This document shows, one piece after another, positions 1-14,692 of a stretch of 26,706 nucleotides of DNA (the stretch's first letter is position 1; every line of letters begins with the position of its first letter). This stretch comes from a virus. The stretch covers positions 1 to 26,706 of the IMG/VR virus record IMGVR_UViG_3300032287_002488; one strand, given 5' to 3'. Both the position numbers and the translations under genes were made by a program. The notes beneath the pieces were generated by a model. The model made no database searches. It saw only the letters and a program-made list of their open reading frames with translations, and was not told the DNA's origin.

Positions 1-216
1 GACAAGATATTCAACTGACGTTACACCAGCAGGAACATACCAAGACGTACTTTCATTAAAGATTTGAGAAAAAACACTAAGTGAACGATATGTTGGCCAT
101 GTGTTAGCAAGACTGCTCAAACTTGCTTCATTCGTTTGCCAAAGTCCAATGGCTTCTGTTGTAGAAGTTTGATTTAATCTTCCTATTAAACCGCCGTTAA
201 ATCTTCTTAATGTCAT
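1..216 (-). CDS. Glycine-rich adhesin-like protein, N-terminal fragment
   Basis: The reading frame starts at an ATG at 216 and stays open for 72 codons to the left edge, so only the N-terminus is visible. It is a clear paralogue of the N-terminus of the next gene upstream (220-2667). Both share FNGG near residue 6, a GxWxxxEA block near residues 23-31, a WP pair near residue 40, then QIFNESTSW and VTSVEYLV, which in the sibling run straight into the first polyglycine loop. The ATG lies three bases after the upstream stop, with GGA about ten bases before it. I infer a third member of the glycine-rich, probably receptor-binding, family. Its length and later modules lie outside the window. Confidence 0.8.
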   Translation of the reverse strand, partial: MTLRRFNGGLIGRLNQTSTTEAIGLWQTNEASLSSLANTWPTYRSLSVFSQIFNESTSWYVPAGVTSVEYLV

Positions 217-219
217 TTG

Positions 220-2667
220 TTATGTCCACTTGAGAATGACTGTTCCACTGCCGCCACTACTTCCAGCAACACCAGGATTATAATTACCTATTCCACCTCC
301 ACCTAAACCCGCTACTCCATCGGGTGCGGCCGTCGGACTGTTAAATGAACTATTTCCACCAAATGCGTAATACGTATTTGAGCCTGATATTGTATTAAAT
401 AAACCTAAACCACCTACTTCTCTTGATGGAGAACCGCCTGCCGAACCAGCACCACCGCCTCCGCCACCACCATATTGTCCGCCACCAGTTGATCCGTTAT
501 TCCCTTCAGATGGTGTATATCCACCAAGATTGCCTGTGCCGCCACCTAGAGTATAAGGAGCCACCCCACCTGTGCCACCTGACCCGCCACCACCTGAACC
601 ACCAGCGCCGCCAGGACTTGAAGGACCATTTATACTACCGCCACCACCTCCGCCAGTTGACCATATTGCCGAAAATGGTGATGAACTATACATGCCCGAA
701 TTTGAACCGTTTGAACCTGTGCCTGTGCTACCCGCACCACCCGCACCAACAATAACACTAATTGTGGCGCCCGGTGTCACTGATAATGAAGGACTTACTC
801 GATAACCGCCAGCACCGCCGCCGCCACCTGCCCAAAAATTAATGCCACCGCCACCGCCGCCGCCACCGCCACCACCAGCAACAACAAGATATTCAACTGA
901 TGAAACACCAGTAGGAACGTTCCATGTGACTGTGTTAGAGAATACTGCAATTTTGTTTTGGCCTGCAGATATTTTGATGACAGCAAATCCTGAACCTCCG
1001 GCGCCAGCAGATCCAAAAACTGCCGGATTAGAAGCCCCACCGCCACCGCCGCCACCGCCCATGTTTGTGTTTCCTGTAGTTGCAGACACGGAGCCAGAGT
1101 TTGAACCTGCACCACCACCACCAGTGCCCCCGGCTCCAACTCCTCTAGCATTTGCAGAACCACCGCCACCGCCGCCACCATAAGCGGTGTTCGAACCGGT
1201 GATTGTTGAAAATATTCCTATACCACCGTTGCCACCGCCACCAGGACTGCCTGTTCCATTTTGTCCAATAGCACCCGCACCACCGCCACCACCGCCACTT
1301 GCATTTATTCCAGTACCTCCACCCGTACCACCATTATTTCCTTGAGATGTTGTGCCTAATCCTCCGGCTCCAGAACCATCTCCATAACCACCACCGCCTG
1401 ATCCACCTGCTTGAGCGTGTGAGGGTGGAACACCATATCCACCACCTCCACCTCCAATTGCTGTCAGAAGAATAGCGTTTGCAGTATTACCTGCTGATAG
1501 AATTGTATTTACTCCATTGCTTCCTCTGTTAGAGGCTTGAACAGCGCCACCAGCACCAATCGATACTGTATATAATTGATTTGGACCTACGGGATAACCA
1601 GTGCCTTGCAGAACACCACCGGCACCACCACCACCTCCAATACCTTCACCATGACCACCGGCACCACCACCAGCAACTAATAGATAGTCAATTGTTGTAA
1701 TACCATCTGGAACTCTAAATTGATTTGTGTTTGCAAAAGTAAATATCTGATTTGCTGGGTTAACAAAAGTCCATTTCAAAACGACGATACCGGATCCACC
1801 AGCGCCACCGTAATAATTTCCTGATGAACCTTGACCACCACCGCCGCCACCTCTGTTTGTTGAACCATTATTGCCACCCGGCGCTGGGAATGGTCCAGAA
1901 TTACCTCCATCACCGCCACCAAAAGGTGTACCTGAAGTTGTTGTTGGATTAGAACCCGCAGATCCTGCACCACCGCCACCACCTCCTCCACCACCAGCGT
2001 ATGCTACATTTGCGCCAGATAACGTAGAGAATAATCCTATACCACCAGCAGGAGAACCACCGGCCGCTCCTGCACCGCCGCCACCGCCTTGACCTGGTGA
2101 TGAAGGTCCACCATTATTTCCTTGACCGGGTGTTCCCGAACCCGCTAAACGTGTGCCGTCAAAAGAACCACCACCAGAACCACCGTCTGCTACTGAACTT
2201 CCTGGTGCGGGTGTACTTCTAGCACAACCACCACCTCCACCAGTTGACCATAAACTTGATGATGCGTTATGAATGCCTGAATTAGAACCTTTGCCTCCAC
2301 CGCCTCTGGTACCATCAGCATTACCACCAGCACCGACTGTAATTGTATAACTTTGTCCTGTTGTTACTGGAAATAAACCTGTTCTAAAACCACCAGCACC
2401 ACCACCAGCACCAACATCAGCACCTCCACCACCTCCACCCGCAATGACGAGATATTCAACTGACGTTACACTTTCGGGAACTACCCAAGAAGTGCTTTCA
2501 TTGAAAATCTGAACACCAATAGAAGAAGTGCCATCAGATGGCCATAAATCAGCAACTCTTTTTATATGGGCTTCACTGAGACTCCAAACTCCAGTGGCAG
2601 AACCTCCAATACCTCTAGATGTTAGAGTTCGTGTTCCAAGTATACCACCATTGAAACCAGTTGGCAT
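220..2667 (-). CDS. Three-module glycine-rich adhesin-like tail protein (815 aa)
   Basis: An 815-residue protein dominated by glycine. Residues 1-52 are a short non-glycine head carrying FNGG, GVWSLSEA and LWP. Three homologous modules follow, at about 53-300 (A), 307-566 (B) and 573-815 (C). Each opens with a beta strand of the type VEYLVIAGGGG, continues through a YTVxVGAGG strand and polyglycine loops, holds an STIxGxNxAYxGGG segment, and ends in GGSGxVxxKW. The longest run is 11 glycines (residues 598-608). Glycine-rich loops stacked as polyglycine helices are known from the gp38 adhesins of T-even-like phages such as Salmonella phage S16, so a receptor-binding role is a reasonable inference, but there is no direct gp38 homology I can claim. 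The start ATG overlaps the upstream stop as TAATG, suggesting translational coupling. The gene is much richer in G+C than its neighbours because of GGN codons. Confidence 0.85.
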   Translation of the reverse strand: MPTGFNGGILGTRTLTSRGIGGSATGVWSLSEAHIKRVADLWPSDGTSSIGVQIFNESTSWVVPESVTSVEYLVIAGGGGGGADVGAGGGAGGFRTGLFPVTTGQSYTITVGAGGNADGTRGGGGKGSNSGIHNASSSLWSTGGGGGCARSTPAPGSSVADGGSGGGSFDGTRLAGSGTPGQGNNGGPSSPGQGGGGGAGAAGGSPAGGIGLFSTLSGANVAYAGGGGGGGGGAGSAGSNPTTTSGTPFGGGDGGNSGPFPAPGGNNGSTNRGGGGGGQGSSGNYYGGAGGSGIVVLKWTFVNPANQIFTFANTNQFRVPDGITTIDYLLVAGGGAGGHGEGIGGGGGAGGVLQGTGYPVGPNQLYTVSIGAGGAVQASNRGSNGVNTILSAGNTANAILLTAIGGGGGGYGVPPSHAQAGGSGGGGYGDGSGAGGLGTTSQGNNGGTGGGTGINASGGGGGGAGAIGQNGTGSPGGGGNGGIGIFSTITGSNTAYGGGGGGGSANARGVGAGGTGGGGAGSNSGSVSATTGNTNMGGGGGGGGASNPAVFGSAGAGGSGFAVIKISAGQNKIAVFSNTVTWNVPTGVSSVEYLVVAGGGGGGGGGGGINFWAGGGGGAGGYRVSPSLSVTPGATISVIVGAGGAGSTGTGSNGSNSGMYSSSPFSAIWSTGGGGGGSINGPSSPGGAGGSGGGGSGGTGGVAPYTLGGGTGNLGGYTPSEGNNGSTGGGQYGGGGGGGAGSAGGSPSREVGGLGLFNTISGSNTYYAFGGNSSFNSPTAAPDGVAGLGGGGIGNYNPGVAGSSGGSGTVILKWT
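223..2511 (-). repeat. Three in-gene protein modules A, B, C of the 815-aa adhesin
   Basis: Module A is encoded by about 2511-1768, B by 1749-970 and C by 951-223. Each is 243-260 residues. B and C are joined by the linker GSGFAVIKISAGQNKIAVF, which is repeated exactly in the 852-aa paralogue. The repetition is at protein level. DNA copies are diverged, so these are not recent tandem duplications. Confidence 0.8.
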
Positions 2668-3050
2668 TAACTAATCTCTTCAAAAGATGAAATGAAGTGT
2701 AGACGATTATTTGCATCACCCTTTACTTTGATTTGATCACCTTCTTCTAAGTAAAGTGATTTTGCAAGAATGTCTAGTGATGATTTGGCAGGTACAGTCA
2801 CAACGTTTGCAATAGCATATGTTGAGTTACCACTACCTGTGCTTGTGTTTTGTGCGCCAAATTTAAACAGTTCTACTGAAACATTGCCAGAGTTTGTGCC
2901 GTCAACATTCGAAACAATCAATGTGTTAATTTTGAACACTTTGCCCGAATTAACAGCATTAACAATGACTGACGATGAAACTGTCGTAACGTTGGCGACA
3001 TTACTTTTACCTAAAATATTTGATACGCTAACAATGTTTGGCGCAGCCAT
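2667..3050 (-). CDS. Small beta-rich virion protein (127 aa), cassette 2
   Basis: A 127-residue protein rich in Val, Ser, Asn and Thr, with no signal peptide or membrane segment. It shares a layout with the proteins at 6456-6794 and 7329-7661: a first strand pair ending in L(I/V)(V/A)SN or IAN, a VSV strand, a central strand before VPA, and a C-terminal L(Y/V)LEEGDQIKVK stretch closing with SxxEI. I therefore treat the three as one paralogous family. The gene lies between an M-S-YIGN protein and the glycine-rich adhesin, with which it overlaps as TAATG. The upstream gene's terminal codons Gly-Gly (GGAGGT) supply a strong ribosome binding site for this start. The role is unknown. By position it may be a small decoration or fibre-joining subunit. 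Confidence 0.65.
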   Translation of the reverse strand: MAAPNIVSVSNILGKSNVANVTTVSSSVIVNAVNSGKVFKINTLIVSNVDGTNSGNVSVELFKFGAQNTSTGSGNSTYAIANVVTVPAKSSLDILAKSLYLEEGDQIKVKGDANNRLHFISSFEEIS

Positions 3051-3053
3051 TTA

Positions 3054-3419
3054 TTAACCTCCGAAAATTAACGAGCCTGCAATACTCGAACTAAAAATTT
3101 TTACGTTTGCTGATGGAGCAAAACTTGATGGTGTCACGGAACTAACAGCAGGAACTTGAGTTGCCATTACACCATTACCTAAATGATGAACTACAATATT
3201 GTTTGTTCCTGATCCTGGTGCTGTTGTGAACAACACATTATCCTCATTTAATGTGTAATCAACACCCGGCACTCTATAAGAACCATTCACAAATACTGCT
3301 ACAGATGCTACTGTAGCAGGAGCCCGAACCAATGGTCCAAACTGAGTGTCTGCGCCATTTCCGCTGAATGCATCAACAGTAAATGGTACAGAGGTTACTT
3401 GATTACCAATATATGACAT
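3054..3419 (-). CDS. YIGN-type fibre-associated protein (121 aa), cassette 2
   Basis: This 121-residue protein is paralogous to the N-terminal half of the 172-aa protein at 6811-7329. Both begin M(A/S)YIGN and share F(T)(V/I), a GxGAxTQF block near residues 20-28, a VNG turn near 44-47, a VDY/VDSY strand and a PxSGxNNI strand. Both end in a hydrophobic stretch closing with FGG. This copy lacks the decapeptide repeats found in the longer one and ends at IAGSLIFGG. Proteins starting this way are common in marine T4-like phages, where they are annotated as virion or fibre proteins. The exact role is inferred only. It is the first gene of the second adhesin cassette. Confidence 0.65.
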   Translation of the reverse strand: MSYIGNQVTSVPFTVDAFSGNGADTQFGPLVRAPATVASVAVFVNGSYRVPGVDYTLNEDNVLFTTAPGSGTNNIVVHHLGNGVMATQVPAVSSVTPSSFAPSANVKIFSSSIAGSLIFGG

Positions 3420-3430
3420 TTATTTTCCTA

Positions 3431-3850
3431 TTATTCGTATGTCGGTCTTACTGGTGGTTCACCATCTGGCTTAGGAAACTTATCATTGATTTCTTTGATT
3501 GCTTCATAAAACTTTGTTCCTTTGCCTGGTATTGAACCATCATCTATTGCATCCCACAACAGATTGACAAGAGTAGTAATATCAGGATAGTTTGCAGCAC
3601 GATCAATGAAGTGCTGCCAATATTCAATAAATCTATTCTGATATTCTAACTCTTTATAAATTTCTTCTTTTGTTGGTGGCTTTGTTCCTGCTTCATCTTC
3701 CCAACGTGTAAACTCAAAGTGTCCACCAGAAGCAGACATATCATACCGAGCAGATGGTCTTAATGTTTTAATTGCAGTGTCAATACCACAAACAAGTTTA
3801 TTATTATTACCTACCAGATACTGTGCATAGTTAATATCTTCGTTTCTCAT
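3431..3850 (-). CDS. Charged helical protein between adhesin cassettes; possible fibre assembly factor (139 aa)
   Basis: A 139-residue protein unlike its neighbours: charged and apparently helical, with Glu/Lys/Asp-rich segments and no glycine or Ser/Thr/Asn bias. Residues 1-45 (MRNEDINYAQYLVG onward, with TLRPSARY) form one part. Residues 60-85 look helical (EEIYKELEYQNRFIEYW). Residues 84-132 carry a block, RAANYPDITTLVNLLWDAID, followed by a helix and DKFPKP. A similar YP-I-L/M-aspartate-rich block followed by KP is widespread in small proteins of marine phage tail-fibre regions, by my recollection of those families. Because it is soluble-looking and sits between two adhesin cassettes, a chaperone-like or fibre-assembly role is possible but unproven. 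It has a strong ribosome binding site (AAAGGTGA) and follows the longest gap in this part of the window. Confidence 0.7.
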   Translation of the reverse strand: MRNEDINYAQYLVGNNNKLVCGIDTAIKTLRPSARYDMSASGGHFEFTRWEDEAGTKPPTKEEIYKELEYQNRFIEYWQHFIDRAANYPDITTLVNLLWDAIDDGSIPGKGTKFYEAIKEINDKFPKPDGEPPVRPTYE

Positions 3851-3854
3851 TCAA

Positions 3855-3862
3855 TCACCTTT
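3855..3862 (-). promoter_or_regulatory. Strong ribosome binding site of the 139-aa gene
   Basis: On the minus strand this reads AAAGGTGA, four bases before the ATG at 3850. It is one of the clearest Shine-Dalgarno sequences in the window and sits in an intergenic gap rather than inside an upstream gene. Confidence 0.6.
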
Positions 3863-3871
3863 AAATAAAAA

Positions 3872-3879
3872 TATTTATG
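3872..3879 (-). promoter_or_regulatory. Candidate T4-like late promoter
   Basis: The minus strand reads CATAAATA, one mismatch from the T4 late-promoter element TATAAATA. It lies in the 36-base gap between the 852-aa adhesin and the 139-aa gene, 21 bases before the ATG. That spacing leaves room for a start site and a short leader containing the AAAGGTGA site. AT-rich sequence makes chance matches likely, so this is a suggestion only. Confidence 0.4.
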
Positions 3880-3886
3880 CTGTGTT

Positions 3887-6445
3887 TTAATTCCATTTAA
3901 TAATAACGATACCAGAACCGCCGGCGCCACCACCACCACCCGAACCTGGTTGTGATGATCCAGCACCACCGCCACCACCTCGATTAATTGGTGCATTATC
4001 ACCTACAGTATTGACTGTTGAAACGCCAGCATTTGCACCACCATACTCAGTTGCACCATAACCAAACGTCAGCGGAAAACCTGCACCACCGCCGCCACCA
4101 GCATATCCTACATTAGCACCAGAAATAGTTGAATAGATTCCTATACCGCCATTACCTCCTGTTGTTGGTGATGCATTCACTCCATTTGCTCCAGCACCAC
4201 CACCACCTCCTCCTGCTTGAATTGAAGGTCCACTTCTAAAACCATTACCACCACCATTACCTTGTGCTGGAGAAATACCAGAAAAATTATTATTACTTGA
4301 CCACCAATTTCCTTGTCCACCAACTGCACCAGTGGGAGTTGCTGGACCATTACCACCACCACCTGATCCTCCAGATGAACCTATGCCAGAAAAAGTTGCT
4401 GCGCCACCACCACCACCGCCAGCAGATGTGACTGTGCTAAAGATTGAATCTGTTCCATTTGATGCTCTTGTAGTACCAGGACTTGTTGTACCAGGTGATC
4501 CTGCACCTCCACTACCAACTGTAATTGTGTATGATTGTCCTGGTGTTACTAAAAATCCTGTGCCCGATCTATAGCCACCCGCACCTCCACCTCCACCAAC
4601 ATCTCCACCACCACCACCACCGCCAGCGACAACAAGATACTCGACCGACGTTACATTATTGGGTACATTCCATGTTGCGGTATCTGTAAATACAGCAATT
4701 TTATTTTGACCCGCAGATATTTTAATAACAGCAAAACCAGAACCGCCTGCTGCGGCAAGAGGTGATGATGCTCCAGCACCGCCGCCACCACCGCCAGAGT
4801 TGACTGTCCCCGGAGTTGCATCAATGGTAGCCGGTGTTCCTGAACCACCGTTACCTCCGCCACCAACACCACCAAAACCAGTTACGACAGGAGTAAAGCA
4901 ACAACCACCACCTCCACCTCCGCCGTATGCTACGTTTGAGCCAGTTATGGTTGAATATATTCCACCACCGCCATTCCCGCCAGTTGTGGCTGTGGCATTT
5001 AGTCCGTTTGATGATGCACCGCCACCGCCACCGCCATTACCATTTGCCGGTGAACTAAAACCTGCGCCGCCGTCCGTTCCCTGTGCGGGTGAAACGTTTG
5101 GTATATTTCCTTGACCCCCCGAATAAGCCTGTGTAGGAGAACCGCCTGCTACAGCACCTCCCCCACCACCAGAACCACCACTAAGTCCTGGTCCATTAGA
5201 TTCACCTCCACCACCACCGCCAGAAGCAGTGATAACTGGATTGTTCGCTGTATTACCACCAGAAAGCACTGTGTTTGTACCATTACCACCAGGCATCGAA
5301 GGAGTTGGTGCGCCGCCGCCAGCGCCGATTGACACTGTATATAATTGTCCTGGTCCGACTGGGAAGCCAACTCCTATTCGAACACCACCGGCGCCACCAC
5401 CGCCACCCGATCTACTGTTACTGATTGAGTCGCCACCACCGCCACCACCACCAACTAAAAAGTAATCAATTGTTGTTGCACCTTGTGGTATTCTCAGTTG
5501 ACCTGTGTTCGCAAAAACATAAATGCCATTACCACCAGGAAGTGTTTCAGTGTAACGAACGATGATGACACCAGAACCACCAGCAGCACCGGCTCTAGCA
5601 TTTCCATCACCACCACCTCCACCACCGGTGTTAGTATTTCCCGAAGTTGCAACACCGCTTGGTCCAATAGGCGCACCTTGACCTCCACCACCGACACCAC
5701 CAAGACCACCTTGGTTGGAAGCATGACCTCCACCACCACCACCGGCGTATGCTACATTAGCACCAGATATGGTTGAAAAAGCACCAGCGCCGCCATCGCC
5801 GCCCGCACTCCCGGATCCATTTTGTCCATTTGCTGTTGCACCACCACCGCCACCACCGCCAGCATTAGCAGGACTAGGGTTAGCAGTTCCGCCACCAAAT
5901 CCTTGTGTGGGTGAAACATTTGGTATATTTCCTAGTCCAACTAGACTGTCACCCGCCGAACCCGCTGAACCGCCACCGCCCGATCCACCACTAGCGGCCG
6001 CAGTTGTTCTAATATCGGAGCCATACCCCCCACCAGCCGACCAAACAGCGGGAAATGGTGATGCGCTATAAATTCCAGAATTTGATCCGTTTGCATTTAT
6101 AGCACCTCCAGCACCAACAACAAAAGTATAAGAAGTACCGGGAACAACACTAAATCCTGTTGATGTGCGATAACCACCAGCACCTCCGCCACCGGATCCT
6201 TGAGTTGCATCTGCACCATCGCCACCACCGCCACCACCTGCCACAATAAGATAGTCCACTTGTGACACACTTGATGGTGCTACCCATGTTGTAGTTTCAG
6301 TAAAAATTCTTAATACAGTATAATTAACTGGAAGTCTGCCTAATAGAGGCACAGACATTCTACTTAAAGACAAAAAGACTTTAATAGAATGTGACGTTAA
6401 TCTCCTCGAGGAAGATGGTTTAATATTAAGTCTACGCTGACTCAT
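3887..6445 (-). CDS. Three-module glycine-rich adhesin-like tail protein (852 aa)
   Basis: An 852-residue paralogue of the 815-aa protein. It has the same three-module plan: A at about residues 46-299, B at 307-573, C at 580-852. Module openings are VDYLIVAGGG, IDYFLVGGGG and VEYLVVAGGG, the closing motifs are SGVIIVRY, SGFAVIKIS and SGIVIIKW, and each module has an STIxGxN segment followed by glycine runs. The head (residues 1-45) is basic and Ser/Leu-rich and lacks the FNGG and GVW blocks seen in the two downstream paralogues, so the attachment end may differ. Cys-Cys occurs at about 515-516 in module B. The ribosome binding site upstream of the ATG at 6445 is weak, ten bases after the previous stop. 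A receptor-binding or fibre-tip role is inferred from glycine-rich phage adhesins. Confidence 0.85.
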   Translation of the reverse strand: MSQRRLNIKPSSSRRLTSHSIKVFLSLSRMSVPLLGRLPVNYTVLRIFTETTTWVAPSSVSQVDYLIVAGGGGGGDGADATQGSGGGGAGGYRTSTGFSVVPGTSYTFVVGAGGAINANGSNSGIYSASPFPAVWSAGGGYGSDIRTTAAASGGSGGGGSAGSAGDSLVGLGNIPNVSPTQGFGGGTANPSPANAGGGGGGGATANGQNGSGSAGGDGGAGAFSTISGANVAYAGGGGGGHASNQGGLGGVGGGGQGAPIGPSGVATSGNTNTGGGGGGDGNARAGAAGGSGVIIVRYTETLPGGNGIYVFANTGQLRIPQGATTIDYFLVGGGGGGGDSISNSRSGGGGGAGGVRIGVGFPVGPGQLYTVSIGAGGGAPTPSMPGGNGTNTVLSGGNTANNPVITASGGGGGGESNGPGLSGGSGGGGGAVAGGSPTQAYSGGQGNIPNVSPAQGTDGGAGFSSPANGNGGGGGGASSNGLNATATTGGNGGGGIYSTITGSNVAYGGGGGGGCCFTPVVTGFGGVGGGGNGGSGTPATIDATPGTVNSGGGGGGAGASSPLAAAGGSGFAVIKISAGQNKIAVFTDTATWNVPNNVTSVEYLVVAGGGGGGGDVGGGGGAGGYRSGTGFLVTPGQSYTITVGSGGAGSPGTTSPGTTRASNGTDSIFSTVTSAGGGGGGAATFSGIGSSGGSGGGGNGPATPTGAVGGQGNWWSSNNNFSGISPAQGNGGGNGFRSGPSIQAGGGGGGAGANGVNASPTTGGNGGIGIYSTISGANVGYAGGGGGAGFPLTFGYGATEYGGANAGVSTVNTVGDNAPINRGGGGGAGSSQPGSGGGGGAGGSGIVIIKWN
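5079..5113 (-). repeat. Near-identical 35-base intragenic repeat, copy in module B
   Basis: This 35-base stretch matches 5901-5935 at 31 of 35 positions by eye, with one mismatch in its central 24 bases. It encodes GNIPNVSPAQG. Most other DNA in modules A and B is far more diverged. Confidence 0.65.
5901..5935 (-). repeat. Near-identical 35-base intragenic repeat, copy in module A
   Basis: Partner of 5079-5113. It encodes GNIPNVSPTQG in module A of the 852-aa adhesin. The copies are about 820 bases apart in direct orientation. Confidence 0.65.
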
Positions 6446-6455
6446 TTAAATGTCA

Positions 6456-6794
6456 TTAATAAATTTCAGTACCAAAAGCAGAGAACGCAAGTAATGAACT
6501 ATTAGCATTAACTGAAACAATTGAACCAGCATTTAATGTAATACCTAACGTTAATGTTATAGTATCACGACCAGGTACATTAACACCATAAGCAATGTAA
6601 CTTGCATTTGAAACAGCAGCACTTGATGTGTTGACTGAAATTCTAAATGCACCACCATCCGTAGGATCTTCATCAAGATTTGCAACTGTAATTGATGAAA
6701 TAATTGCTGAGTTACCTGACGGTACTGTATACAGTGTGGTCAACACATTTGCTGATGGATTTGATTGACCTAAAATTTTATATGTTCTTGCCAT
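6456..6794 (-). CDS. Small beta-rich virion protein (112 aa), cassette 1
   Basis: A 112-residue protein beginning MARTYKILGQSNPSANV. Alternating hydrophobic strands include SSITVANLDE near residues 34-43, a central strand before PGRDTITLTLGI, and a C-terminal L(N)AGSIVSVNA strand ending FGTEIY. The strand order parallels the 127-aa and 110-aa proteins (IAN/VAN, then P, then L-AG-I-V), so it is placed in the same family. It sits between the 172-aa YIGN protein and the 852-aa adhesin, exactly as the 127-aa protein does in the other cassette. It has an AAAGGA-type ribosome binding site upstream. Its biochemical role is unknown. A structural subunit of the fibre or baseplate rim is likely. Confidence 0.65.
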   Translation of the reverse strand: MARTYKILGQSNPSANVLTTLYTVPSGNSAIISSITVANLDEDPTDGGAFRISVNTSSAAVSNASYIAYGVNVPGRDTITLTLGITLNAGSIVSVNANSSLLAFSAFGTEIY

Positions 6795-6810
6795 TCGTTA
6801 GTTTTCCTTT

Positions 6811-7329
6811 TTACATTCCACCAAATAAAAATGCGTCATCAAAAATATCTGCTGGTGTGCTGATCTTTTCACCTGTGATTGAATTGTTTGCAATCTTAAT
6901 TGTAGTAATTGAACTGTTTGCAATTTTGGATGTGATGATTGAATCGTCTGCAACTTTAATTGTAGTGATTGAACTGTTTGCAATCTTAGTTGTAGTGACT
7001 GAATCTGTGGCCAACGCTGTTTCTGTTACTGCACCCGCTAAAAGTTGACTTGAAGAAACTTGATTAAAAGTTATAACAACAGGCGCACGATACGTTGCGA
7101 TGACATTATTTGAACCAGAAGAAGGTGGTTCAGTAAAAGTAATTATGCCATTTGTTACGCTATAAGAATCAACCGGAGTTTGTATAACACCATTGACAAT
7201 AATTTCAACAGCATTTGCATCATCAATATCACGTGTTAATGTGAACTGTGTACAAGCGCCAGTTCCGTTGAATTTTTCAACTCCTATTGTAAAAGAATTG
7301 ACTTCCGGATTATTGCCAATATATGCCAT
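6811..7329 (-). CDS. YIGN-type tail-fibre-like protein with decapeptide repeats (172 aa)
   Basis: Residues 1-83 form the YIGN domain, paralogous to the 121-aa protein at 3054-3419, with GTGACTQF at 22-29, VNG at 45-47 and SSGSNNVI at 70-77. Residues 109-157 hold five decapeptide repeats of the form xSITTxKIAN, a pattern typical of trimeric phage fibre shafts. The C-terminus ends DDAFLFGGM. The start ATG shares one base with the stop of the upstream 110-aa gene (TAATG), implying coupled translation. I infer a short fibre or fibre-adaptor subunit, first in a cassette followed by a small beta-rich protein and a glycine-rich adhesin. No enzyme motif is visible. Confidence 0.7.
   Translation of the reverse strand: MAYIGNNPEVNSFTIGVEKFNGTGACTQFTLTRDIDDANAVEIIVNGVIQTPVDSYSVTNGIITFTEPPSSGSNNVIATYRAPVVITFNQVSSSQLLAGAVTETALATDSVTTTKIANSSITTIKVADDSIITSKIANSSITTIKIANNSITGEKISTPADIFDDAFLFGGM
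6859..7005 (-). repeat. Five 30-base (decapeptide) tandem repeats
   Basis: Each unit encodes about ten residues: DSVTTTKIAN, SSITTIKVAD, DSIITSKIAN, SSITTIKIAN and NSITGEKIS. At DNA level the copies share phrases such as TTGCAAACAGTTCAATCA, so the array is recent enough to recombine. Confidence 0.8.
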
Positions 7330-7661
7330 TAGGTAATCTCCAGAACCGAAACAATAACATCCGCCGATGATGCTACAGAAGTATTTACTCGTAAGTAATC
7401 ACCTGCTTCAAGAACTAGTTTTTGATCTCCACCAATAGGTACCAAAGCGCCACCAGGAGCAACTGTAGCATCTTTAATGATAAAAACATTACCCTGAATG
7501 GTACCACCATTTAGTGTAACACTTACACCAATTGGTGTTGTTATAAGATTGGCAATCGTCATACCAATGACGGTTGTTTGAACACCCGCACCGGCAGCAT
7601 ATACATTTTCCGTAGCAGTACCTGCCGATTTGAGTGTGTAGTTTCTAAAATTGTTAGCCAT
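7329..7661 (-). CDS. Small beta-rich virion protein (110 aa)
   Basis: A 110-residue protein beginning MANNFRNYTLKSAG. It contains the strand series VIGMTIANL (near 31-39), IGVSVTLNGG, VFIIKDATVAPGG and KLVLEAGDYLRVN (near 80-92), and ends VSVLEIT. This matches the plan of the 112-aa and 127-aa proteins and is the most typical of the three. Similar short proteins are recurrent in the fibre regions of marine T4-like phages, where they are annotated as virion or hypothetical proteins. It overlaps the next gene by one base (TAATG) and is preceded by a GAGG ribosome binding site and a late-promoter-like element. It may supply the subunit on which the following fibre proteins assemble, but this is inference. 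Confidence 0.7.
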   Translation of the reverse strand: MANNFRNYTLKSAGTATENVYAAGAGVQTTVIGMTIANLITTPIGVSVTLNGGTIQGNVFIIKDATVAPGGALVPIGGDQKLVLEAGDYLRVNTSVASSADVIVSVLEIT

Positions 7662-7680: not shown

Positions 7681-7688
7681 TATTTATT
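7681..7688 (-). promoter_or_regulatory. Candidate T4-like late promoter
   Basis: The minus strand reads AATAAATA, one mismatch from the T4 late element TATAAATA. It lies 19 bases before the ATG at 7661 and its first base is the last base of the 254-aa gene's stop. Position and spacing resemble the candidate at 3872-3879. Both lie near the head of an adhesin cassette. Confidence 0.35.
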
Positions 7689-8452
7689 CAACCTAGAGCA
7701 ATAGCAAAAGCAATTGATTCTTCTGTTATCGTTGCGATTGTATTATAAATTGCCGTGTTTGCTGCGTTGATAGTGTTATAAATTCCCGTGTTTGCTGCAC
7801 CGACTAGTGAAGTGATATTAGCCGTGCTTGCATTTAAGTTGGTGGTATTAACTGAGCCAGCAACACTCAGATCATCGAAACCAATAGAATCTAAAGTGAC
7901 ATTACCCGAAACAGTTAAATTGCCGTGTAAGAATGTGTCGCCACCAACATATAAGTTACTTGAAACATTTGCTGTAGAAATGTTTGAGAAGAAAGATGTT
8001 CCAGTTACATTCAAACTATTGGCAATATTTGCTGAACCTTTGACATCCAAATCGTCAAAGCCAACAGCATCAAGTGTAACATTACCTGAGATTGTCAAAT
8101 TACCGTAGATGAAAGAATCGCCACCAACAAACAGTCTGTTAGTAACATTAATAGAAGCAACGTTACCAATTAAGTTTGCGCTGCGACCAACGATTAAATC
8201 TAAAGGTATTGAAACATTACTGCTTGACACAAGAACGTTAGCAATGTTCGCCGTATTAACCGTTAGAGTATTAATGTTGGCTAGTGTGCGAACATTCAAA
8301 GAAGCAGCAGAACCTTCAATGAAAATTGAAGAGTTCATTACAAAACCGCCACCCGTGTTGTCGGTTAGATTATTTGCAACCGCAACTAAAGTAGATGTGG
8401 TTGTTAACCATTCCGCAAACGTATTGGCTGTTGATATTTGATTTATTGCCAT
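7688..8452 (-). CDS. Tail-fibre-like repeat protein (254 aa)
   Basis: The N-terminus (MAINQISTANTFAEWLTTTS, with a following VAVANNLTD) resembles the N-terminal domain found on many marine myophage fibre proteins. Residues 50-100 are Asn/Val/Ser-rich strands. Residues 107-140 and 167-200 form two copies of a roughly 60-residue unit centred on L(F/Y)VGGD(S/T)F, GNLT(I/V)SGNVTLD and GFDDL. Residues 209-240 hold two short IYNTI repeats, and the last 14 residues are hydrophobic. The protein is short for a full fibre and has no receptor-binding or S74 peptidase domain, so it may be a fibre base or connector. It begins one base after the stop of the coiled-coil gene. Confidence 0.75.
   Translation of the reverse strand: MAINQISTANTFAEWLTTTSTLVAVANNLTDNTGGGFVMNSSIFIEGSAASLNVRTLANINTLTVNTANIANVLVSSSNVSIPLDLIVGRSANLIGNVASINVTNRLFVGGDSFIYGNLTISGNVTLDAVGFDDLDVKGSANIANSLNVTGTSFFSNISTANVSSNLYVGGDTFLHGNLTVSGNVTLDSIGFDDLSVAGSVNTTNLNASTANITSLVGAANTGIYNTINAANTAIYNTIATITEESIAFAIALG
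7853..8134 (-). repeat. Two 180-base direct repeats in the 254-aa fibre gene
   Basis: The unit encodes residues 107-140 and 167-200 with a period of 60 residues. Shared protein blocks are VGGD, GNLT, SGNVTLD and GFDDL. DNA copies are visibly diverged at third positions. Confidence 0.7.
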
Positions 8453-8453
8453 C

Positions 8454-8675
8454 TTATGTTCTCGTTACAAGTTGTTGCAGAAGATTTTTTATATCTGTCA
8501 TATCCTGCTCTAGTTTTTGTACTTTATTTTTCATTTCTTCTTGTTCTTCTATTCTTTTTTTAGCCAGCAGACGTTGAGCCTTGTATTTCTCAAGGCCCTC
8601 AACATCTGTATTTAACAACGCTCGATTCGTGATATCACGAACCAATGTTGGATTATCTTTAATTCTGACTAACAT
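8454..8675 (-). CDS. Short coiled-coil virion-region protein (73 aa)
   Basis: A 73-residue protein. Residues 1-25 (MLVRIKDNPTLVRDITNRAL, then NTD) form a short head. Residues 26-70 are a charged helix with hydrophobic heptad positions (YKAQRLLAKK, KVQKLEQDM, IKNLLQQLV) typical of a coiled coil. Small proteins with this head and a coiled-coil tail are recurrent next to the large virion proteins of marine T4-like phages. The function is not known. The ATG overlaps the stop of the upstream DUF4815 gene (TAATG), so translation is probably coupled to that protein. A structural clamp or trimerisation peptide is one possibility. Confidence 0.75.
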   Translation of the reverse strand: MLVRIKDNPTLVRDITNRALLNTDVEGLEKYKAQRLLAKKRIEEQEEMKNKVQKLEQDMTDIKNLLQQLVTRT

Positions 8676-11600
8676 TATAGTGAATCAGGTAAAGCAACAA
8701 CTCTTAGTTCTTTTACTTTAGGAACATCAGTTGGATCAGGTGATGTCATTACAATTTTAATTGCAAAAGTTCCAAATGATGTGTACGTTACATTTCCTGA
8801 AATGTAATTAATGTTATTAACAGCATTGCCATTTGTACCAGGAGCAAATGTCATTTCACGATAATCATCTTGGTTCGTAGATACAAAAGTGCCTCCGTTA
8901 ATTTGTGTCAACAAAGACCAATTTTTCTCATTAAATATTTGTGGATCACCGGATGCAAGATATTTTGCGTATACGTAGATTCTACCTCTTGGTGGTAAAT
9001 AACCCAACAGATATACACGTAAATCGCCAGAATCAAAGCCCGGTGCCAATTGAACACTACGTGTTAAATAACGAACTAACGCATTACCGCCAGATTTTCT
9101 ATCTTCACCATTATAAATTACCGTAGCACCAGAACCGTCTCCAGTAATTGATACTGTTGGTGATGTAGAATAACCAGAACCGGCGGCGGTCAAATTAATA
9201 CCAACAATTTGTCCACCCGAAATATTTGCAGTAGCGACAGCATCAACTCCGTTTCCACCAGAAATAGCAATACTTGCGGTTGTGTAACCAGTACCCGGAT
9301 TTGTTACTACAAAATCTCCTTGTCTCAGTTGAAGATTATTAATAAGATTTTGAACAGCAAGAAGATTTAATCGAGTTCGATCAATCATTGGCGAAATATC
9401 ACGATTTACTGTTGCCATGGTTGTACGCAACGAGAATGTAGTGTTACCTGTTGCCTTGTTTAAGGAACGACGACCACGACCATCATTCATTTCATAGTTA
9501 GAATTTGGATCGAATTCAATATATGGATGACTTGCTCCTACTGTGTTTTCAGCAATAAATTCATATTTCAAACTTGTATTTGCTAGAACAATATCAGTAG
9601 ACATTACGTGCATCAAATCAAATAATACATTTGCAGATTGACGAGACATGTTTACTTCAAAATGAGCATAACCTGGTGTTGTCGTAGAGTATGCGTTTTT
9701 GTTTATCGCAAACATCATGTCAGACGTTTGATCCGCTGTCCAAGTTGAACCGTTTTGTGACAAGAACAATGAACCAACATAAGGTTGCTCGGAAATTTTT
9801 GTAGAAGATGCAATGTTTGTCTGACCAATTTCAGCACAATATGCTTCATAACCAATAGAGTTCGATAACAAGACGACAGAATGTTCACCCGGCAACAAGA
9901 AAACTGGTACTGGGAATCTAAATTCCGTGTATTTTGTCGGATCGGTTATGCTAGGCACTTGTGTTGTTTTAACTTTATCTGGAGTTAAAGTCACATCAGC
10001 AAATGGATAAACTATGTTAGTAGGATAACCATTTTCAACTGTACGTATCTGACATGTAACTGGCGCTTGTGCATCCTTTGTTCTAACACAAACTCGAATG
10101 CTTGACACCATAATACCTTGTGGATATTGAGCGCCTACAAAGAATGTTTGTGCAAGAGGATCACGTGGTGGTTGCGGTGGCGGTGTGGTACTACTGGAAC
10201 TTCTAGTAGTTCTCACCGTTCTTTCTTCAACCAAGTCTCTGGATTCAACTCTAGGAACAAGAGTCGAAACAATCGTTTCTTGTACAGTTTGAATTAAGCC
10301 TTGTGCAAAGAAAGAAACATCACCGTTAGTTGTTGATTTTTCAACTGAACCACTTGGATCGTCATTTATACGCAACTGTTTTTGTCCGGCTCGGAACACA
10401 TCTTGAGGAATTAAAAATACTCCAGCAGTTGCACCCTCAGCCGTTGATTCTAATCTTCCAATACTATAACCAGAAGTTGTATCGGGGACTGTTGTCCAAT
10501 TTGTAGAAACATTTGCAGTTCTTGTAATTGTGTTATAAGCGTTAATTACTGCTGATTGTCCAGCACCAGTTCCATCAATGATTCTAATTGTTTGTCCAAC
10601 ATAATCGGTTGTGTTTGACGCTCCACCCGCATGATAGCCTAATTCAATAGTCGAAACTGTAGCGGATCTTGCTGTGCCACTAAAGTGTTGCCACTCGGAC
10701 AGTAAATTGTTTGTTTCTGGTGTGCCACCAACAGCATAAACACCTCCTGTAGCACTAGACCAAGAACCATAAGTATCTGAAGGAACAAAACTAACAACAA
10801 ATGCATCGTTGTTTGAAGTTAAAACAACAGTTGCTTCACCCATAACTTGATTAGTTAAGTTGTCACGAAACTCAATTACTTCTTGATCACTTGGTGCCGT
10901 ATGGTATGTTAAATTATTATTGGCAAATTTAAGTAAATTTGCACGGAAAATATACTGATCAATTGTTTCGTTATCGAAAAATGAGAACAGAGGCGTTAAG
11001 GGTTTGAAGCCAGTTCCTGTAAATATAACATACAGTTCTCTCATAAACTGAACAATACTGACATCAACAATTTTATCACCCAAAGATGTAGACAATTCTT
11101 CTGGAATAATTTGTTCAAGTATACCTGTTCTTACTTGCTCTTCTGTTCTTGTCGTTCTTCTTCTTCTTGTCGTTGAGCCATCACTATTTGTTCTTCTTCT
11201 ACTTGATGTGCTAACTCCTGTAAAAGTTGTTTCCCAAGAATTCCAAGTTGTAGTGGCGGCAACTGCATTGATTTTATCCCATGCATCACGTGCTTCTTGA
11301 CCGCCAGTCAAATCGACATTCTGTGCTTCGATTCTGTTATCTGATTTCCAAACATCAGAAGGAGGGTCAAGAACAATTCTTCCAAGATAAGTAATGACAC
11401 TAAATGGATTAATATTTACAGACTTAGACGCTAAATTTTGTGTTAAGAAACTCTCTTCAGAACTTTTTAGTGTAAGAAGAGGACCATTAAATTCAATGCC
11501 AGAATCTGAGGGGCTAGCATTGGAGAACACACCTACAGAATAAATGTTAAATGTGTTTCTTGCTAAATTATCCAGTGTATCAATTGATGCTGAAAAATCT

Positions 11601-14600
11601 GTAGCAGTAAAATCAGCAACAGTTTTATCTGAAAACGGATCAACTAGAATTCCGTTTTTAAATCTAGGTAAACCTGTGCTATCAATTATTGACAAATCTT
11701 GCTTATTCAAAGCGCCTTGTTCCATCAGAGATAGAGAAGTGTAATATTCAAGATTTTGGATACGTTTTTCTAACGCACCGATGTCTTTCATTGTATAACG
11801 TTTGTTATCGAAACTTTGAATTCTCGTCATCTCGGAAAAAGCAAGATATGCTGGATATGTTAAAATATACAGAGTCATTGCTTCCGCTGGCTGTTCAGGA
11901 GCCTTTGGCACAGTTGATGGAACACCAATTAATACATCAAAGTTTCCGTTTGTATTTAAAATAACTCGGTCAATACGAGGTAAATAAAAACCATAATTGT
12001 AATTTAAATCTGTTCCAGGTTCTGGAAGTTTAGGACCAGCACCACGCTCTTCAACATCAAACACATAATTGTTTGCTGTAACTGTGTTTGTTGCATCCAA
12101 ACGAACTGGTCGGAAATCAAAATTGTCGGACAAATCAAGAGAAACACCACCTGCTGTAGTATATCCAGGTATGCTACCGTAATCAAAAACACCAGGACCT
12201 TGGCGTGTATATGAATCAACATTAAAGTAACCAGTGCCTGAAGAAATGAAACGATTATAACGTACAAGCAACGGTCCTTTTGGTGCTGGATAACCAGGCT
12301 TCAGAGTAATTGATCCCCAATCATAATAAGAATCTTTTTGGCCTGTTGTTAGTGTATAGAAAGAAGTTATGTTTGAATACGATCCAGCATTATAACTTGT
12401 TGTGTTAATCTGTACGCCATTAAAATCAAAAATTGCATTAATTGAGTGTATATCTGCTGCAAACAATGACTGAGGAATATCAGGTGTTCTTACAAGAATC
12501 GTGTTTGCATTAATAATTGTTTGACCATCTGGCGATGAAACAAAAACTGCACCATTACCAAAAACATTATTTGATGTTGTTACACCAGTGCCATTTGCTG
12601 CAAGTCTTGTATTTGCACGAACAAATGTTTTTGTTTTTGATGTAGGATTAGTAGTAAGAATGGTGCCGTAAATATTTGCAACCATGTTACCACCATCCGT
12701 AACGGAAATGGTACGAGCAACTGGGTCAACAGACATCACGTGTGCAGGCACAATCGAACCCACATCATAATTACTTGTTCCTTTACTTGTGACAATTAAA
12801 GTATAATATTGTTGTTTATCTGCTGTTGCTGTTGCAGTCAACAAAGATTCACCCGTTCCTAAAGAAAGCGGTGAAGATACACCCGCAGCAAACGATACAG
12901 TCTGATATAAACGACGATACGTATAACTGAAAGAAGAGATTGTATTATCTGCAACATTTTCTTCACCTACTCTTATCAAAAGAGGTTCATTACCAGAATC
13001 GGTAATGGAAGTCATGAGATGCTCGATTGGATTGTAAGAAACGGTCCTTGAATATGGATGAATGTTAGCCGAAACTGATCGTGTTGTACCAGCACCAGTC
13101 ATCATTGCTAGAGATTCCACTTGTCCAAAATCAAAGTCGATAACGAACTGTGACGATGTGCCAATTGCTGTGCTATATGGATTGTCTACAGTTACATTTC
13201 TTGTTGCGCCCTCATAAAATTTAATTGTGCGTGGAAATTGGCCTGCGCCAGGACCAGCAACAATTCTAAATTTAGCACCAAGATACGCATCATTGTTAGC
13301 AGAAAATCCTGATGGCAAAGTAAACGTTGTTGTATTACCTAATACAATATTGTATCCATTACTTGTTGTTGTATTAAACAGTGTACGAACATTAATATCG
13401 GATAAAAATGTTTTGTAGATGTAAGTATTACCATCTTGAGCATTCGCAGATTCCTCAAAAGAAATCATTTTAATTTTAGCAGAGCCGACTCTTACGTTAT
13501 CTAAGTTCGCCGTGTTTGCTTGAATGTTTACAAGTGTACCGGCATCAACCGAATACAATTCTACGTTAGCAAATTGATTTGTTGGGAAAGTGCCAAAAAA
13601 ACTGTTAGCAAAAACATAGTATCCAGGATTTGCTGTTATACGACGACCAGTAACTGTTTGTGTAGTTCTTGGTTTAGGTACGGTAATAGTCGTTGATGAA
13701 GTTTTTTCGTTTTCATAACCACGAACGTATGCTTTACCTGGGCCAAGTACAACATTAGTAAATGCTGTATTTGAAGAATCTGCTAAAGCAAGACTAAACG
13801 GCTTTGTTATATAATCACCAGACTCATCAAAAGTACGTCTTGCTAGAGTATCACCTAGTGGTCCGTAAATAGGAACTTCAATTACCCTCTGAGCAATACC
13901 CTCTTTGAACTGACTCAACTCGATAAACTGAGTTAGGTCTGTACTATCTACGCTACGAGTTGTGAGAGTTAAATCTATTTTTAATCTATCTGCACCAGGC
14001 GCTTGAAAATTTGATGCAGATTGTGCTGGATCAAGTAACGATGTATCTTCGGTATAATCGACAATTTCTTCTGTAACTTGAAAGCCTACAATTACATTTG
14101 AATTCCTATTGTATTTTGACAGGGCAACCGACTGTGCCGAATTGCGAACGAAAACACCTTCATAATAAAACACACCATCATTAATAGAAAACGATTGTGA
14201 ATTACCTGTTGGATTTGTAGAAGCGACATTTGCATAATATTGTGTCGCACCAAACTCAGCGTTGGCGGTAACAATTTCTTCGTTGACTCCAAAATCCGAA
14301 CCGTATAATTGACTAATAATAAGTGTAACAGGCTCACCAGATGTAGTATCAGCATTATATGATTTTAACACATATGCTTTTTTTGTTCCTGTTGTATTGG
14401 TAATATACTGTTTATCAAAAGTATTATAATTAATATCAACGCCAGAATATGATGTAGATACATTAAGATAAGAAGTATTTTGAATAAAGATTTGTCCACC
14501 GGAAACAAGTGAACCTGTTTTAAATACGTGATCGCCAAATTTTTTAATTTGGTCTTGTAAAATAGTTTGAGACTGAATTAGTTCACGGGACTGAACAGCA

Positions 14601-14692
14601 AAGCCGGGCTTATATAAAACTCTATAGTAGTTTTTATCTTCGTTAAAATCATCATAATACGGATCAACATTAAAATTTGTAGTTAGTGCCAT
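8675..14692 (-). CDS. DUF4815-type large virion structural protein (2005 aa)
   Basis: A 2005-residue protein. The N-terminus (PYYDDFNEDKNYYRVLYKPG and then QSRELIQSQT, QIKKFGDHVF) is the signature of the DUF4815 family of phage structural proteins, found in marine myophages downstream of the baseplate wedge genes. Basic or low-complexity linkers lie at about 1161-1186 (Arg/Thr-rich) and 1490-1507 (Ser-Thr-Pro). The second is followed by RDPLAQTFFVG, a motif shared by many marine phage virion proteins. Residues about 1793-1860 hold two GxGY beta repeats. The C-terminal 130 residues (from the RSVQLAPGFDSGDLRVY block) look like a compact end domain. The position after gp8 is where T4 has gp9 to gp12, so a peripheral baseplate or fibre-attachment role is likely. 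The start follows an AAAGG site eleven bases upstream, before the ATG at 14692. Confidence 0.85.
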   Translation of the reverse strand: MALTTNFNVDPYYDDFNEDKNYYRVLYKPGFAVQSRELIQSQTILQDQIKKFGDHVFKTGSLVSGGQIFIQNTSYLNVSTSYSGVDINYNTFDKQYITNTTGTKKAYVLKSYNADTTSGEPVTLIISQLYGSDFGVNEEIVTANAEFGATQYYANVASTNPTGNSQSFSINDGVFYYEGVFVRNSAQSVALSKYNRNSNVIVGFQVTEEIVDYTEDTSLLDPAQSASNFQAPGADRLKIDLTLTTRSVDSTDLTQFIELSQFKEGIAQRVIEVPIYGPLGDTLARRTFDESGDYITKPFSLALADSSNTAFTNVVLGPGKAYVRGYENEKTSSTTITVPKPRTTQTVTGRRITANPGYYVFANSFFGTFPTNQFANVELYSVDAGTLVNIQANTANLDNVRVGSAKIKMISFEESANAQDGNTYIYKTFLSDINVRTLFNTTTSNGYNIVLGNTTTFTLPSGFSANNDAYLGAKFRIVAGPGAGQFPRTIKFYEGATRNVTVDNPYSTAIGTSSQFVIDFDFGQVESLAMMTGAGTTRSVSANIHPYSRTVSYNPIEHLMTSITDSGNEPLLIRVGEENVADNTISSFSYTYRRLYQTVSFAAGVSSPLSLGTGESLLTATATADKQQYYTLIVTSKGTSNYDVGSIVPAHVMSVDPVARTISVTDGGNMVANIYGTILTTNPTSKTKTFVRANTRLAANGTGVTTSNNVFGNGAVFVSSPDGQTIINANTILVRTPDIPQSLFAADIHSINAIFDFNGVQINTTSYNAGSYSNITSFYTLTTGQKDSYYDWGSITLKPGYPAPKGPLLVRYNRFISSGTGYFNVDSYTRQGPGVFDYGSIPGYTTAGGVSLDLSDNFDFRPVRLDATNTVTANNYVFDVEERGAGPKLPEPGTDLNYNYGFYLPRIDRVILNTNGNFDVLIGVPSTVPKAPEQPAEAMTLYILTYPAYLAFSEMTRIQSFDNKRYTMKDIGALEKRIQNLEYYTSLSLMEQGALNKQDLSIIDSTGLPRFKNGILVDPFSDKTVADFTATDFSASIDTLDNLARNTFNIYSVGVFSNASPSDSGIEFNGPLLTLKSSEESFLTQNLASKSVNINPFSVITYLGRIVLDPPSDVWKSDNRIEAQNVDLTGGQEARDAWDKINAVAATTTWNSWETTFTGVSTSSRRRTNSDGSTTRRRRTTRTEEQVRTGILEQIIPEELSTSLGDKIVDVSIVQFMRELYVIFTGTGFKPLTPLFSFFDNETIDQYIFRANLLKFANNNLTYHTAPSDQEVIEFRDNLTNQVMGEATVVLTSNNDAFVVSFVPSDTYGSWSSATGGVYAVGGTPETNNLLSEWQHFSGTARSATVSTIELGYHAGGASNTTDYVGQTIRIIDGTGAGQSAVINAYNTITRTANVSTNWTTVPDTTSGYSIGRLESTAEGATAGVFLIPQDVFRAGQKQLRINDDPSGSVEKSTTNGDVSFFAQGLIQTVQETIVSTLVPRVESRDLVEERTVRTTRSSSSTTPPPQPPRDPLAQTFFVGAQYPQGIMVSSIRVCVRTKDAQAPVTCQIRTVENGYPTNIVYPFADVTLTPDKVKTTQVPSITDPTKYTEFRFPVPVFLLPGEHSVVLLSNSIGYEAYCAEIGQTNIASSTKISEQPYVGSLFLSQNGSTWTADQTSDMMFAINKNAYSTTTPGYAHFEVNMSRQSANVLFDLMHVMSTDIVLANTSLKYEFIAENTVGASHPYIEFDPNSNYEMNDGRGRRSLNKATGNTTFSLRTTMATVNRDISPMIDRTRLNLLAVQNLINNLQLRQGDFVVTNPGTGYTTASIAISGGNGVDAVATANISGGQIVGINLTAAGSGYSTSPTVSITGDGSGATVIYNGEDRKSGGNALVRYLTRSVQLAPGFDSGDLRVYLLGYLPPRGRIYVYAKYLASGDPQIFNEKNWSLLTQINGGTFVSTNQDDYREMTFAPGTNGNAVNNINYISGNVTYTSFGTFAIKIVMTSPDPTDVPKVKELRVVALPDSL
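9113..9316 (-). repeat. GxGY beta repeats inside the DUF4815 protein
   Basis: Residues about 1793-1860 read as two units: NPGTGYTTASIAISGGNG and AAGSGYSTSPTVSITGDG, separated by an ANISGGQIVGINL strand. The same unit occurs in the gp6, gp7-like and gp8 proteins. Confidence 0.7.

Follow-up and report, generated by a model that had tools for sequence, protein, structure and literature searches.

How is a host-binding fibre held together when shaft and adhesin are encoded by separate genes, and what is the role of a small protein encoded between them? The question is raised by the fibre region of IMG/VR virus record IMGVR_UViG_3300032287_002488, of which positions 1 to 26,706 were analysed here (26.7 kb, the window). 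The window is a fragment of a marine T4-like myovirus with baseplate hub, gp5, PAAR, gp25, gp6 and gp8-type genes, and its annotated genes are all on the minus strand. Its fibre region encodes three copies of a small beta protein (S) among a fibre gene (F), two YIGN proteins (Y) and three-module glycine-rich proteins (G). From sequence comparison we favour, with a probability of about 0.6, the reading that S serves as a connector (collar) between tagged fibre shafts and interchangeable adhesin tips.

The genes follow one another in the order 73-aa (amino acid) gene, F, S1, YA, S2, GA, C139, YB, S3, GB, GC. We refer to YA-S2-GA as slot A, to YB-S3-GB as slot B and to the loci of relatives by L-numbers.

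7688..8452, minus strand: F, fibre-like protein and first shaft, 254 aa; C-terminus ...ESIAFAIALG (tag AFAIALG)
7329..7661, minus strand: S1 (S110 type), predicted jelly-roll family, 110 aa; PHROG 1276 at E 1.1e-7; ALG-tag clade of the S tree
6811..7329, minus strand: YA, YIGN protein, 172 aa; N-terminal anchor-like beta domain, repeats and, by alignment, C-terminal tag FDDAFLFGGM
6456..6794, minus strand: S2 (S112 type), putative small connector, 112 aa; beta sandwich in an AlphaFold2 (AF2) model, jelly-roll matches in Foldseek
3887..6445, minus strand: GA, putative tip, 852 aa; basic N-terminal anchor MSQRRL..FLSLSRMSVP and three Gly_rich_2 modules (PF21722, E 9.3e-63)
3431..3850, minus strand: C139, 139 aa, between the two sets; PHROGs 20715, 9114 and 1787, each of unknown function
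3054..3419, minus strand: YB, YIGN protein of the YA family, 121 aa; tag SLIFGG, C-terminus ...AGSLIFGG
2667..3050, minus strand: S3 (S127 type), putative small connector, 127 aa; PHROG 1276 at E 9.9e-5; xFG-tag clade of the S tree
220..2667, minus strand: GB, putative tip, 815 aa; head FNGGILG..ATGVWSLSE and three Gly_rich_2 modules (PF21722, E 1.1e-50)
1..216, minus strand: GC, beginning of another putative tip, truncated at the contig end; head FNGGLIG..IGLWQTNE, of the same type as that of GB

Sequence establishes the families and their order, the tag and its pairing with S, how S pairs with the tip head, and that tip bodies are exchanged. On the connector reading, the region would encode host-binding fibres from plug-in parts. 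A shaft (F, YA or YB) would sit with its N-terminus on the baseplate and end in a short hydrophobic-glycine peptide. S, probably a trimer or other ring, would recognize this tag, cap the shaft and also hold the head at the N-terminus of an adhesin tip (GA, GB or GC), all of these proteins being part of the virion. Each S subtype would fit a particular class of shaft tag together with a particular kind of tip head, and tip bodies, glycine-rich or lectin-like, could therefore be swapped on an unchanged shaft and several tips carried at once. By analogy with gp38 of phages S16 and PP01 and gp24 of Pam3, the tips may bind receptors (PMC12892980, PMC9608196).

The original prediction had noted the order Y-S-G twice, and all six open reading frames are indeed present on the minus strand. 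The open glycine-rich head it placed at 1-216 is present as well and resembles the head of 220-2667 (blastp, 50% identity, E 6e-17). Absent from it were the third S (7329-7661), which follows F (7688-8452), and C139 (3431-3850) between the sets. The arrangement recurs, as F-S-Y-S-tip-C-Y-S-tip(s), in dozens of related viral contigs, S and C139 varying little in size, and is therefore not due to chance. F keeps its position in relatives, after the 73-aa gene and a gene for a 2005-aa protein, and the 172-kb contig of one relative holds exactly three S copies, every one inside the fibre cluster. The idea that the proteins act as a set is supported, as is the recurrence of their order in many phages, but the conserved core consists of tagged shaft, S and tip head rather than of the Y-S-G trio.

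The shaft tag

When the neighbours of every S were listed, the gene upstream nearly always ended in a hydrophobic-glycine tag: AFAIALG before S110, FDDAFLFGGM before S112, and xxIIFGG or TGKAIAMAIVFG(G) before S127 and in other phages. Phages phiPsal1 and ct2KA10 have LMLMGG or FLLMGA before S. In S-bearing loci, S lies directly after 118 of 119 tagged genes; the regular expression for the tag was written after seeing these genes, so only later scans for the tag alone, made without reference to S, are independent.

The scan of viral contigs for TGKAIAMAIVFG found it at the extreme C-terminus in 80/80 genes, with S directly next in 75/80. Among bacterial genome contigs, it was C-terminal in 6/6 genes and followed by S in 6/6; these six cases come from five kinds of metagenome-assembled genomes (MAGs; Pelagibacter, Maricaulis, Vicinamibacterales, Gammaproteobacteria and Comamonadaceae). 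Combined, the tag is C-terminal in 86/86 genes and S is next in 81/86. S also follows 67/80 genes ending in AFAIALG-stop and 28/46 ending in AFLFGGM-stop. A full-text literature search for the tag peptide found no paper.

The TGKAIAMAIVFG tag has 60 different DNA encodings in 80 genes with free third codon positions, which indicates that the peptide is kept under selection. The same result rules out a conserved DNA element such as a recombination or promoter site. Clustering of the tagged protein bodies by blastp merged nearly all of them through repeats, and we therefore do not claim that all tagged bodies are non-homologous.

The AFLFGGM matches without an adjacent S include tiny proteins of 46-116 aa that start with MIQKV.. 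and have no YIGN domain (L374:2624-2764, L377:641-781, L414:3897-4247 and 15 similar). Their tail is exactly the NIVSPPDIFDDAFLFGGM of YA, and their genes close the fibre block, ahead of the neck gene and with no S nearby; some directly precede a glycine-rich tip (MPLLSTFAVGSLPGILGRG). They are possibly partners of S2 in trans. The large downstream fibre in three loci (L374:2-1492, L388:2-1114, L409:3-2165) ends in TGKAIAMSIVFGG and is followed by a short protein that is not S. These short proteins start with MTQRI, MPQQY or VPTQR, some have a knob-like C-terminus, and they could be an alternative partner of the same tag.

Pairing with S and with the tip head

On a tree of 74 S proteins, the four tag classes require three changes, the minimum. 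The ALG clade brings together the S proteins that follow F of the T4-like group, gp23 of HTVC010P, which we take to be a podovirus, and two Melnitz genes. One tag class thus occurs on different shafts; conversely, all three classes occur among shafts of the Y family. Within this family, 46/48 tagged members precede S and 17/19 untagged members do not (Fisher p 8e-12). In the two tagged members that do not precede S, L055 and L059 (SNSLFALG), the regular expression seems to have matched by accident. Slot B of L024 has neither tag nor S; L027 and L028, with nearly the same Y domain, have both.

Could tag and S simply be inherited together as parts of a fibre-gene block, with separate roles and the tag serving as a trimer folding or registration element? 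Linkage could produce the match between tag class and S clade, and the 18 FLFGGM-tagged genes without S nearby would fit. Yet the same tag class stands on different myovirus and podovirus fibre genes, each with its matching S, and within the Y family the presence of the tag accompanies S as the next gene. We regard co-inheritance alone as very improbable.

S is also paired with what follows it. S112 is 72-94% identical in closer relatives and 80-94% in loci L011-L032, although their tips differ: slot A tips are glycine-rich in some of these loci and low in glycine in others, and S112 is 80-87% identical in nine relatives with a low-glycine tip body. The one low-glycine tip that was scanned (L016) is a lectin-type protein with Laminin_G_3 and DUF7483. 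Both kinds of slot A tip keep a ..SLxRMxVP-type anchor, a basic start ending in a motif like SLSRMSVP, NRISLRRFPFP or SRISLKRMTVP.

Slot B tips have a head of the form FNGGIIG...SGIWSLxE. A distant S type (31-38% identity) takes the place of S3 in L016, L026, L027 and L030; there the tip head and the last tag residue have changed too, and YB retains ordinary similarity (63-64%). Across 18 loci, similarity of S3 (S127) tracks that of the N-terminal 45 residues of the tip (Mantel r 0.75; 0.72 once the YB domain is corrected for, p 2e-4), and its correlation with YB is only 0.34. Several relatives have two or three tandem tips behind one S with heads that all match, as do GB and GC here. Tandem G genes with matching heads and lectin-type replacements of G support the suggestion of the original prediction that the phage carries alternative tips.

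Several points weigh against the connector reading. The count of 118/119 does not serve as proof, given how the expression was made, and the rows of the later scans may hold near-copies. In the AFAIALG scan, 13/80 genes lack S as the next gene. The other 18/46 AFLFGGM matches are short tagged proteins encoded at another site, ahead of the neck gene or of a glycine-rich tip, with no neighbouring S, so that S in trans or another partner of the tag would be needed. Covariation between tag and S127 in slot B is not significant after control for the YB domain. An untagged G gene of ~300 aa precedes S in L033, L036, L038, L055, L056 and L058-L060; S thus persists there without an adjacent tag. Finally, no tip gene belonging to S1 (7329-7661) lies directly behind it.

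This last point would also suit a different role for S, as the end knob of the fibre itself: a split-off TNF/C1q-like head that replaces a covalent knob and holds no further protein, with the glycine-rich proteins attached elsewhere. The predicted jelly-roll fold of S has Foldseek matches of the TNF/RANKL type, most untagged Y are not followed by S, and two long untagged Y (L033 and L060) carry an extra C-terminal domain in place of the tag, as if a knob and a tag plus S were alternatives. Against this, variation in S tracks the N-terminus of the next tip rather than the shaft, most tag loci have a tip-like gene behind S, and, unlike a receptor-binding head, S is strongly conserved among varying tips. 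We consider the end knob unlikely and retain the connector as the better account of S.

Extending the connector to other phages, marine and freshwater tailed phages of different morphologies may share orthogonal pairs of peptide tag and socket in at least three classes (ALG, LFGGM/LMGG and xFG). Jelly-roll connectors would load exchangeable tips onto unrelated shafts, also in trans, and one virion would carry several addressed tips. We offer this extension tentatively and hold it to be possible rather than probable.

Homology and predicted folds

The original prediction took all three positions of the two sets to be paralogous. The Y pair (blastp E 2e-11 to 3e-11, 34% identity; homologous by profiles too) and the G pair (blastp E 9e-22, three PF21722 stretches in each) agree with this. 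Direct comparison of S2 and S3 is weak (blastp E 0.02; shuffle z 5.9, with 0/1000 shuffles as good), and a profile seeded with S1 finds both, S2 (6456-6794) with E 1.9e-30 and S3 (2667-3050) with E 1.9e-29. All three S match PHROG 1276 individually (E 1.3e-7, 1.1e-7 and 9.9e-5). By these profile comparisons, the homology of the S pair is certain. The sets are thus paralogous, but the notion of one duplicated block does not hold: S112 and S127 do not form one clade (approximately unbiased test, p 0.000235), which rules out block duplication of a single trio. The S proteins of the two sets belong to different subfamilies, both of which are also present in other phages.

No family in Pfam or NCBIfam describes S, and a sequence search of the PDB with S found no relative. 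The AF2 model of S2 is an eight-stranded beta sandwich (predicted local distance difference test, pLDDT, 89.8), from which we predict that S is a jelly roll. Its best Foldseek match in the PDB is a pentameric phage protein (4dmi, E 2e-4), with a template modelling (TM) score of just 0.4; others are plant-virus capsid, nucleoplasmin-like, TNF-family and ExsF/BxpB jelly rolls. Among predicted viral structures, many small phage proteins match, some of them annotated as virion proteins, as do domains within larger 'tail fiber-like' proteins of S-CAM1 and P-SSM2.

A small gene adjoining fibre genes could also encode an assembly chaperone or a transient cap, needed for folding the fibre C-terminus and absent from the finished fibre, and chaperone caps are known for marine phage fibres (PMC10579305). 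Candidates for this task already lie nearby, namely C139 and a Phage_tail_APC gene (E 3e-22) behind the lectin tip of L016, and the S jelly roll has no helical trimerization domain of the kind found in Tfa proteins. Moreover, the S protein of HTVC010P (gp24) is, by annotation at least, a virion structural protein. A chaperone role for S is improbable, and a connector that stays in the fibre remains our preferred reading.

The N-terminal domain of YA is modelled by AF2 at a pLDDT of about 95; the rest of Y, including the tag, has low confidence as a monomer. Foldseek matches of the domain are weak and include the T7 gp17 N-terminus, the HRP29 tail and the TSP4 head; most of the top matches are N-termini of fibres and tailspikes and portal-tail complexes (E 0.008 to 0.4). 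On these weak matches, the domain may resemble the anchoring domain of T7 gp17 or of a tailspike. In Pfam, nothing matches Y above the cut-off, and a sequence search of the PDB with Y returned mostly antibody light chains, which are chance matches.

Glycine makes up 33-35% of the G proteins, and GA and GB match Gly_rich_2 (PF21722) at 212.7 and 173.2 bits against a curated cut-off of 24.3, in three stretches each. PHROG 863 'tail fiber assembly' is matched weakly (GA E 8e-8, GB E 4e-4). Glycine-rich motifs of T2/S16-type adhesins form a polyglycine type II sandwich; a profile of the glycine-rich module studied here found no PDB chain at E<0.01, S16 gp38 included. A tblastn search of phages with GA also had no match, which is explained by the masking of glycine-rich sequence as low-complexity. 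The roles of base, collar and tip proposed earlier fit an anchor-like N-terminus of Y with weak Foldseek matches, a predicted jelly roll in between and an adhesin-like G; they need amending in that the shaft can also be F or another fibre gene.

Known systems and neighbouring genes

In chimeras of T2/S16-type gp38, the N-terminus of the adhesin must match the fibre (PMC12892980). As in the gp37-gp38 pair of these phages, a glycine-rich adhesin gene here follows a fibre gene, and a variable tip is combined with a constant shaft. The window differs in three respects: in both sets a separate gene, S, is interposed between fibre and tip; the shaft bears a C-terminal tag; and the modules of the tips are larger and number one to three. 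The tail fibre gp24 of the myocyanophage Pam3 (chaperone gp25) has TNF-like and glycine-rich receptor-binding domains in one chain (PMC9608196), whereas S and the glycine-rich tip are separate proteins.

The S family matches PHROG 1276, whose entry records no function, partner or tag, and the modules of GA and GB belong to PF21722, whose entry is silent on anchoring heads and S. The exosporium proteins ExsF/BxpB (PDB 9h3d, 8d02) are small jelly-roll trimers to which a short peptide from a filament protein binds. Their likeness to S is a weak fold match with no sequence relation; moreover, the peptide they bind is N-terminal, whereas the tag is C-terminal, and they belong to a spore coat. Glycine-rich adhesin tips and modular exchange of fibres are already known. 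The literature searched on glycine-rich pelagiphage fibres and jelly-roll connectors, mainly open-access papers, does not describe this unit, and neither these papers nor the family libraries we searched contain a family of small connectors that pair with tags at the C-terminus of shafts.

Little is understood of the ways in which phages that infect SAR11, OM43, Synechococcus or other aquatic bacteria build and vary their fibres, and the genes concerned are for the most part annotated 'hypothetical'. The tag would provide a simple rule by which phage genomes from metagenomes could be searched for shaft, connector and receptor-binding tip. The unit may explain how abundant ocean phages can change to other host structures without having to remake the entire fibre and, if the connector reading is true, tag and S could form a docking pair for phage engineering.

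C139 is kept in relatives and is possibly a fibre assembly chaperone, as weakly suggested by an XkdW match in 1/16 relatives (E 0.09). None of 16 members scored above the cut-off for Phage_tail_APC, Tfa or XkdW, and a sequence search of the PDB found no relative of C139. L029 has two tandem C139 genes, one per subtype (L029:11919-12787), where relatives have one, and looks like a junction of two fibre cassettes.

Slot B of L024 (L024:12354-18114) combines its untagged YB, which has an extra C-terminal domain, with three large proteins in tandem, all of which begin with MAxVxKxRxKxTSTTTGTGTFTLGAA. A protein of ~125 aa with the pattern MAHFAxLDxNNVV..SYN...RK.YAG is encoded near the tips in many phages (L011:17534-17923 and homologues, also in Bellamy, Melnitz and MAG contigs L243 and L247); its L016 copy has no match in Pfam or NCBIfam. 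Beyond the fibre region, gp6 of the window is ~38-40% identical to that of Methylophilales phage Melnitz and Pelagibacter phages Mosig and HTVC008M. The 2005-aa protein (8675-14692) contains DUF4815 (E 2e-61) and is related to the phage structural protein ORF65 (PDB 9euf, E 1.6e-40).

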